From NCBI RefSeq assembly GCF_023684405.1, contig NZ_JAGSOI010000024.1:1-34489 (forward strand): a stretch of 34,489 nt of DNA, written 5' to 3'. Source of the stretch: Methanococcoides seepicolus (GTDB lineage Archaea > Halobacteriota > Methanosarcinia > Methanosarcinales > Methanosarcinaceae). Shown here piece by piece: positions 152 to 30,813 of this stretch. The position numbers and the translations under genes are program-made. The notes under the pieces were generated by a model that saw nothing but the letters and a program-made list of their open reading frames with translations, made no database searches and had not been told where the DNA came from. Numbering within the stretch: the first letter of the stretch is position 1; every line of letters starts with the position of its first letter.

Positions 152-385
152 TCAGACTTTTTTAATATGGACCTTCCATATGTTATTTTCTTCTTTGTCG
201 ATACCAAGAATGGTATGTCCTTCGTTCTTCACACTTTTAGGAACATTTGATACCGCAGGTGCATAATCAAAGATAACTGTGAGACGGTCACCAGTTTCCA
301 GTTCTTCTAACTGCAATTTGGTTTTTACGAAAGTAAAGGGACAAATCTCCCCCCTGAGATCTAATTCTATTGATTCTTCAGCCAT
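152..385 (-). CDS. TusA/SirA-family sulfur carrier protein
   Basis: A 77-residue protein with the short alpha/beta layout of the TusA/SirA/YeeD family. These proteins carry sulfur as a persulfide on a conserved cysteine and pass it to tRNA-thiolation, cofactor or redox enzymes. The N-terminal strand (ELDLRGEICPFTFVK) holds the family's CPxP-type motif as CPFT, with the active cysteine at residue 15. The proline after it is replaced by threonine, which is seen in some family branches. The ATG is preceded by an AGGTGG ribosome-binding site about 5 nt away. It is a single-gene unit on the minus strand, with an E1-like enzyme of possible sulfur-transfer function 1.5 kb away. The family is clear; the sulfur acceptor is unknown. 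Confidence 0.85.
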   Translation of the reverse strand: MAEESIELDLRGEICPFTFVKTKLQLEELETGDRLTVIFDYAPAVSNVPKSVKNEGHTILGIDKEENNIWKVHIKKV

Positions 386-564: not shown

Positions 565-594
565 TTGCGACTTCACAATAGTGAACCGTCGCAA
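565..594. promoter_or_regulatory. Operator-like inverted repeat at the predicted transcription start
   Basis: The left arm TTGCGAC plus TTCAC and the right arm GTGAA plus GTCGCAA form a two-part dyad. The loop is AATA, and an extra CC interrupts the right arm. It sits about 25 bp after the TATA box and 53 bp before the ATG of the winged-helix gene. That is where an archaeal repressor would block RNA polymerase. Autoregulation by the downstream protein is an inference. Confidence 0.45.
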
Positions 595-646
595 CATCTC
601 AAACCAGAGATATTAATAATATACATTATACAAAGGAGAAATGATA

Positions 647-1043
647 ATGAGGGATCGATTTTGTTGAAAATTACAAGGAAAGCGTACAGGTAAAGAAAAA
701 CATCGAAGAGCCAAACGATAAATATCTGAGGAAGGCGATCGAAGGGCTACCCCCTTCTGCAAAACTTGTCTTCAAAGTACTGGAATACGGCGGTCTTCTG
801 ACACAGAAAGAAATTGCTGAACAAAGTTATCTTCCACCACGTACTATCAGATATGCTTTGGGTAGGTTGAAAGATGAGGATTTCCTACAAGAAAGGTTTT
901 ACTTCAAGGATGCAAGGCAAAGCCTGTATGGTTTGAAGAATAAACCTGACATGTATGAAGAAACAAAGATCCCCGTAAACTCCGAGATCAATTCTGCCAT
1001 ATTGGGCATAAATTCGGAAAAGTATGAATTATCAGCTGTATAA
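647..1043 (+). CDS. Winged-helix (MarR/TrmB-like) transcriptional regulator, frame broken at codon 2-3
   Basis: The main frame runs open from 651 to the stop at 1041-1043 and encodes about 130 residues. It has a clear winged-helix DNA-binding core: a helix (LPPSAKLVFKVLEY), then GLLTQKEIAEQSYLPPRTIRYALGRLKDEDFL as helix-turn-helix and recognition helix, then RFYFKDARQSLYGLK as the wing. This frame has no ATG, GTG or TTG before the TTG at 858, which lies inside the recognition helix. An AAAGGAG ribosome-binding site (632-638) stands 8 nt before ATG 647, but that ATG reads MRDRFC and stops. Dropping one G from the GGG at 651-653 joins ATG-AGG to ATC-GAT-TTT-GTT-GAA and restores MRIDFVENYK. The gene therefore looks like a real regulator with a one-base insertion, a sequencing error or a +1 shift. 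Ligand and targets are unknown. Confidence 0.7.
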
Positions 1044-30735: not shown

Positions 30736-30813
30736 TGGCGGGCGTGAAGGGATTTGAACCCCTGATTTACAGCTTAGGAGGCTGCCGCCATATCCTGGCT
30801 AGGCCACACGCCC
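30736..30813 (-). tRNA. tRNA-Arg (anticodon CCT), CCA encoded
   Basis: The acceptor GGGCGTG pairs with CACGCCC. The anticodon stem GCAGC/GCTGT holds loop CTCCTAA with CCT, which reads AGG codons. The T arm contains GGTTCAAATCC. The discriminator is G and the genomic CCA follows. It stands alone on the minus strand. Confidence 0.93.

Follow-up and report, generated by a model that had tools for sequence, protein, structure and literature searches.

Two reading frames at the regulator locus

How can a protein be made from an intact reading frame that has no start codon? The question is raised by a winged-helix regulator of Methanococcoides seepicolus, encoded in a stretch of 34,489 nucleotides that was analysed as a whole (the window; contig C76), and the sole homolog in its own genome at E 0.001. 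The regulator frame (651-1043; 130 open codons, GIDFVENYK...) is closed on its upstream side by TGA-TAA-TGA, and no ATG, GTG or TTG occurs in it ahead of TTG 858, which itself lies within the winged helix. A Shine-Dalgarno sequence stands upstream of ATG 647, which opens the frame ATG AGG GAT CGA TTT TGT TGA (the TGA at 665-667); a second ATG, 641, is in frame with it, and the regulator frame is +1 relative to both. The trans-frame product, MRDRF-VENYK..., is predicted to have 131 amino acids. An earlier sequence-only reading had pointed out the missing start and the AAAGGAG and ATG 647 lying one frame off, and the sequence and frames bear it out on both points; the tRNA-Arg(CCT) gene it had noted is present in the window at 30736-30813. 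To account for the break it had offered a sequencing error, a fresh loss-of-function mutation or, ranked as least likely, a programmed +1 shift at AGG-G decoded by that tRNA. The features of the locus are given in Table 1.

Table 1. Features at and around the regulator gene in the window
Feature	Position	Strand	Basis
Palindrome TTCACAATAGTGAA, possible operator	572-585	.	TTCACN4GTGAA enrichment near homologs
Shine-Dalgarno AAAGGAG for ATG 647	632-638	+	sequence; GGTG/GGAG kept in homologs
Zero-frame leader ORF MRDRFC-stop	647-667	+	mostly MR[DN]R[FL]C among homologs
Internal AGG, proposed Shine-Dalgarno-like stimulator, 6 nt ahead of the slip codon	650-652	+	AGG in 106/109; prfB spacing
Proposed slip site UUU-U, tRNA-Phe re-pairing +1 on UUU	659-662	+	TTT in 108/108 homologs
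Cys codon UGU in the A site, proposed Cys-tRNA sensor	662-664	+	TGT/TGC in 108/108
+1-frame regulator body VENYK... (frame open from 651)	663-1043	+	HTH_24 winged helix, AlphaFold2, Foldseek MarR matches
Divergent neighbour, TusA sulfurtransferase	152-385	-	PF01206, E 1.7e-22

Spread of the broken start

The first protein search covered 40 genomes, including that of M. seepicolus, and gave homologs in 19 of them. Nine of the ten same-genus relatives matched from residue 1 of the startless frame, and all nine matching DNA loci carried the identical frame break; the tenth (G002, 76 % complete) gave no match in this search. Relatives retained the GGG at the break together with an intact protein, an outcome that the sequence-only reading had set beforehand as favouring programmed shifting. 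Of 185 genomes of the order, 62 had the exact pattern ATGAGGRATCGNYTTTGY, as had 44 of 392 genomes sampled from the phylum (own genome counted in both), and the reversed pattern, used as a control, had no match in either set.

The shared arrangement is ATG AGG RAT CGN YTT TGY, to which the regulator frame is +1. The motif led into a winged-helix protein in that frame in all 50 rows of one locus set, in which some loci overlap, L031 and L043 end early inside the domain and L048 is ended by the contig end, and in 18 of 18 cases in a further set. Among the named records that carry the motif are Methanococcoides, Methanolobus, Methanohalophilus, Methanosalsum, Methanosarcina, ANME-2, Methanoperedens, Methanothrix and Methanoregula. 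At E 1e-10, 82 of the 185 order genomes had a homolog and the other 103 had none. Relatives occurred in 204 of the 392 phylum genomes and most of these lacked the exact motif, so the switch is not general.

The frame break was thus confirmed to be beyond chance and not an assembly error. A single-base break, and the run of 4-5 Ts in the UUU variants, are what a sequencing error, a pseudogene or transcriptional slippage could produce, but such an origin is barely credible when the same break recurs in independent assemblies of many genera and neither the reading frame nor the domain is damaged. The first two options of the sequence-only reading, sequencing error and fresh loss of function, were rejected on these grounds, and transcriptional slippage was rejected because the CUU variants hold only three Ts.

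Some individual loci are worth recording. In an uncultured Methanosarcinales archaeon (L078) the recoded gene is present twice, close to cysS and metX-metY. In L031 and L043 the domain of the recoded copy is interrupted downstream, with a different tail, and these are perhaps decaying genes. A contig titled Candidatus Dojkabacteria (L077) shares its in-frame homolog with Methanosalsum natronophilum (L075) and is probably misbinned.

Codon constraint at the site

Pooling the loci and removing identical sequences left 167 homologs. The recoded class, in which an upstream ATG reads through YTT-TGY and the domain lies in the +1 frame, comprises 109 of them, and 52 of the other 58 have an in-frame ATG; since the search profile was built on recoded members, these ratios do not represent natural frequencies. 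Because the class is defined by YTT-TGY, which is therefore fixed in its 109 members, the selection was redone blind to codons, using the protein motif G[IVL]xF ahead of the domain in the +1 frame. This selected 108 of the 167 distinct homologs, which are kin and so not independent counts, and in 108 of 108 the Phe was encoded by TTT, preceded by C or T and followed by GT or GC, that is, by zero-frame YTT-TGY. Elsewhere in these proteins TTT accounts for 183 of 422 Phe codons. All 86 Val codons before the site ended in C or T, against 251 GTY codons of 636 elsewhere. A main-frame ATG ahead of the domain is missing from 106 homologs, and the arrangement is present in 100 of these, the six exceptions being L022, L088 (contig-end cut, still CTTTGC), L119 (fragment), L208, L227 and L241.

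Within the recoded class the zero frame ahead of the slip codon has AGG in 106 of 109 (GGG in two, AGU in one), followed by GAT (74) or AAT (35) and then by CGN in 103 and other codons in 6, and the leader peptide is mostly MR[DN]R[FL]C. In 106 of the 109 the nearest ATG has GGTG or GGAG at most 16 nt ahead of it, and 16 different codons follow the Cys codon. In 15 divergent representatives the columns from the ATG to the Cys codon were nearly fixed, only -6, -1, 0 and +5 varying freely, and conservation fell past the Cys codon, so the zero frame is constrained up to that codon and not beyond it. In the homologs a conserved startless +1 ORF is overlapped by a zero-frame ORF that has a start, and the P-site codon, UUU-U or CUU-U, is slippery and conserved throughout the codon-blind class. 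A conserved programmed +1 frameshift is almost certainly what these patterns reflect, and the option once ranked as the least likely has become the best supported.

The recoding label changed 6 times on a tree of 162 domains, compared with 47 times in shuffles, the tree having few columns and many unresolved forks. Six non-recoded rows fell among the recoded ones, namely L088 (truncated), L208 and the second copies in L119, L122, L124 and L133; the non-recoded L075 was also placed there. In L208, inside the recoded clade, the leader has been lost, and the frame opens after an unrelated stretch with no ATG ahead of the domain.

A zero-frame stop follows at most 7 codons on in 107 of the 109 recoded homologs, and the second codon of the +1 frame is kept as AUC or AUU. 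Both features would suit a leader peptide MRDRFC followed by separate translation of the regulator, through re-initiation or from an unusual +1-frame start such as AUC 654. This reading is quite improbable: it leaves the invariant TTT and the YTT-TGY unexplained, seven paralogs join MxDxF straight to the body (see below), and the +1 frame ahead of the domain is free of ATG in 100 of the 109 homologs and of ATG, GTG and TTG in 77, and on this last ground re-initiation was rejected.

Proposed position of the shift

The sequence-only reading was right in proposing a +1 shift, but the place it chose for it, AGG-G, is probably wrong, and the codon deviants do not support tRNA-Arg(CCT) as the decoder. 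In 33 of the 109 recoded homologs the base after AGG is A, and AGG-A could not re-pair well after a +1 slip. L125 has AGU-G in place of AGG-G, GGG replaces AGG in the two homologs mentioned above, and in ten sequences from Methanoperedens and close kin (MNxRRNRLC) AGG is the fifth codon. Other deviant leaders are MRDHLC, MRDLLC and MRNCLC. All deviants altering AGG-G or CGN retain YTT-TGY. Slippage at AGG-G could draw on the retention of AGG in nearly all members and on the existence of the tRNA, yet it would also leave the downstream zero-frame Cys codon and the YTT without explanation, and we regard it as highly improbable. The codon pattern argues instead that the shift very probably takes place at YUU-U with UGY in the A site. 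As to the role of the AGG, its occurrence before A in those 33 homologs means that not all sites could form a long Shine-Dalgarno helix.

In seven paralogs of the Methanoperedens family (L251, L246, L025, L082, L096, L242 and L248) MxDxF runs on into the body without a change of frame, and a Cys codon is lacking at that place. L251 (MSDRFV...) looks like a hard-wired version of the proposed trans-frame product. These paralogs have ordinary Cys content (12 Cys in 677 residues), as if released from the switch.

Cysteine at the site and in the product

The A-site codon specifies Cys (TGT or TGC) in 108 of 108 members of the codon-blind class and is never a stop, so that the codon for the proposed limiting amino acid is conserved at the place where a shortage would act. 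The product itself avoids this residue. The recoded +1 products contain 13 Cys in 10,679 amino acids (0.12 %), where 128 would be expected from the background (1,385 in 115,194 residues, 1.20 %); 96 of the 109 are free of Cys and 13 contain it. For the domain alone the values are 12 in 8,014 (0.15 %) in recoded members versus 57 in 4,221 (1.35 %) in non-recoded paralogs. A pair test of recoding against Cys content on the tree, with only 4-6 usable pairs, was not significant, and the avoidance is therefore strong but not phylogenetically independent evidence. Met is also low, 0.85 % versus a background of 2.85 %, partly as an artefact because the recoded count omits the initiator Met; the domain by itself has 0.72 % in recoded members and 1.49 % in paralogs.

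The same site could serve a programmed +1 shift working at a constant ratio, with the Cys codon merely slow and no sensing of cysteine. Regulation is a further step beyond the frameshift, which is itself deduced, and slow sense codons aid the +1 shift of yeast Ty1 at CUU-AGG-C (PMC5009743). A constant ratio does not account for Cys, and no other slow codon or stop, being kept in every member of the codon-blind class, nor for the Cys-poor product and the sulfur and Cys-tRNA genes found nearby (see below), and it is unlikely. Taken with the proposed position of the shift, these features make it likely that a programmed +1 frameshift couples synthesis of the regulator to the supply of cysteine.

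The regulator protein

The protein was assigned to the winged-helix fold by Pfam HTH_24 (PF13412), at 23.1 bits against a cut-off of 21.9, and the MarR_2 model scored 18.1 bits, below its curated cut-off of 27. AlphaFold2 was confident over the core only (residues about 30-100, with block means of 92-96 over 31-80). Foldseek matched MarR proteins at E about 1e-4 and TM about 0.5, and a PDB sequence search gave one weak MarR match. Recoded members have open frames of 80-140 codons. No ligand or effector domain was seen in the regulator by Pfam or AlphaFold2; a bare winged helix of this kind fits control at synthesis, and the input of the regulator appears to lie at translation.

Neighbouring genes and palindromes

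Representatives of the flanking gene clusters scored above NCBIfam cut-offs as SepCysS, cysteinyl-tRNA synthetase, MetX, MetY and CysD; other clusters, below the cut-offs, were sulfite reductase-like (Pfam NIR_SIR), SsuA-like and sulfate-permease-like. Members of nine core sulfur and cysteine families were present at 31 of 80 homolog loci, whereas of 40 random windows (12.4 kb each, from 15 genomes) 1 had any; the contrast is somewhat favourable because the test loci themselves supplied the families and the controls lacked matching by taxon. Core families were present in 16 of the 38 homolog loci of at least 10 kb. The 49 of 80 loci with none of the nine include many short contigs and many from Methanoperedens. 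TusA was found in 14 of 80 loci. Depending on the lineage, the genes near or adjacent to the regulator are SepCysS, CysS, TusA with sulfite reductase and CysH, a CysK/ThrC-family gene, or nitrogenase-like genes. Sensing of cysteine for the control of sulfur metabolism is, in view of these neighbourhoods, a fairly likely function.

Nitrogenase-like genes adjoin the recoded regulator or lie near it in L095 and L134 (also L129 and L132); they possibly encode methylthio-alkane reductase, which would be another sulfur source. In seven loci of a Methanoperedens lineage and kin (L070, L071, L073, L074, L079, L081 and L087) the recoded gene stands beside a DUF5788 gene, with no core sulfur families.

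Two palindromes were enriched around the homologs: TTCACN4GTGAA, which occurs 24 times in 761 kb but once in 496 kb of random windows, and GTTAACN3GTTAAC, with 14 occurrences against 0. The form TTCACNATNGTGAA has 3 sites in the M. seepicolus genome. TTCACN4GTGAA lies 95-99 nt from the predicted SepCysS start in two Methanoregula loci. In different genera it is found again at the regulator, close to SepCysS and to MetY, and around a thi4 operon (window 572-585; L155 6925 and 7468; L127 5218; L131 3861; L114 10872). Assigning the palindromes to the winged-helix protein as their binder is at best weak, since a further small gene, next to a thi4 operon of Methanococcoides, is likewise flanked by TTCACNATNGTGAA. 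This gene (L155:6978-7325, own genome) has the two palindrome copies on its flanks and adjoins thi4 and a class-V aminotransferase gene, IscS-like by eye. Its small product is HTH-like by eye, gave no Pfam match at E 1e-5 and is possibly a second sulfur regulator.

Proposed switch

In the mechanism that we propose, ribosomes would start at ATG 647 and read MRDRF. The internal AGG, through a putative anti-Shine-Dalgarno contact, would strain the ribosome as UUU occupies the P site and UGU the A site. If Cys-tRNA is plentiful, the UGU would be decoded and translation would end at once (MRDRFC-stop). With Cys-tRNA scarce the UGU would become a 'hungry' codon and tRNA-Phe would slip +1 onto UUU, giving MRDRF-VENYK...; in the CUU variants tRNA-Leu would slip +1 onto UUU instead. 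Targets of the regulator would be genes of sulfur assimilation and cysteine, perhaps together with its own promoter. Because the regulator would be made when cysteine is scarce, it is expected to turn on genes for sulfur acquisition and Cys-tRNA.

Some lineages make cysteine on tRNA (SepRS/SepCysS). If the proposal is true, the ribosome in these lineages would also measure the last sulfur step of tRNA-based cysteine synthesis. Many methanogens and archaea that oxidise methane would then have a switch for sulfur assimilation, a cysteine/sulfur regulator would have been identified for methanogens and anaerobic methane oxidisers, and programmed +1 frameshifting would be placed in cellular archaeal genes. 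Gene callers should miss or truncate the regulator gene, because its frame has no start codon. Methanosarcina hosts have genetics.

Comparison with known systems

A literature search, whose coverage excluded most subscription papers and preprints, gave no description of this regulator family. The closest parallel is bacterial prfB. As far as the available text of PMC12421855 describes it, prfB likewise has an early zero-frame start, an internal Shine-Dalgarno-like element containing AGG, and a CUU-U or UUU-U slip site at equal spacing, the archaeal AGG (6 nt before YUU in 106 of 109, and shorter than AGGGGG) standing where the prfB AGGGGG-NNN-CTTT element begins; TTTTTGA variants of prfB are known, and there, as is proposed for the regulator, a slow A-site codon senses the pathway of the product itself (PMC12421855). 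The two differ in the A-site codon, which is UGA in prfB and Cys UGY, in all members of the codon-blind class, in the archaeal gene, and in the product, which is release factor 2 in the former and a winged-helix transcription regulator in the latter; the regulator site also lacks a conserved C after the A-site codon.

Yeast Ty1, ABP140 and EST3 resemble the CUU variants in having CUU in the P site and a slow sense codon in the A site, but that codon is AGG or AGU, and no amino-acid sensing is described in the available part of PMC5009743. The archaeal recoding events named in the sources consulted are -1 frameshifts, in the Sulfolobus fucosidase and in the Methanocaldococcus/Methanococcus magnesium chelatase, and for the virus HSTV-2 a +1 event that is very likely; a change of frame would be common to these and the present site, and none of those named there is a Cys-codon regulator.

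MarR-type regulators share the DNA-binding winged-helix fold, and differ in that the recoded members show no effector domain. Mycobacterial poly-Cys uORF attenuators use translation of Cys codons as a cysteine sensor, but they act by attenuation or coupling and not by a frameshift that creates a protein. The provocation of a shift by shortage of an aminoacyl-tRNA at the A site would be shared with the hungry-codon frameshifting of Gallant. Trans-frame proteins made by starvation-induced frameshifting were considered conceivable in a 2016 review, with the remark that 'no examples are known' (PMC5009743). On balance we favour the view that the regulator is the first natural hungry-codon switch, an archaeal transcription factor that would need a +1 slip at a starved Cys codon and through which the ribosome would gauge Cys-tRNA. 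The family offers a conserved candidate for such a case, with a named amino acid and a defined site.
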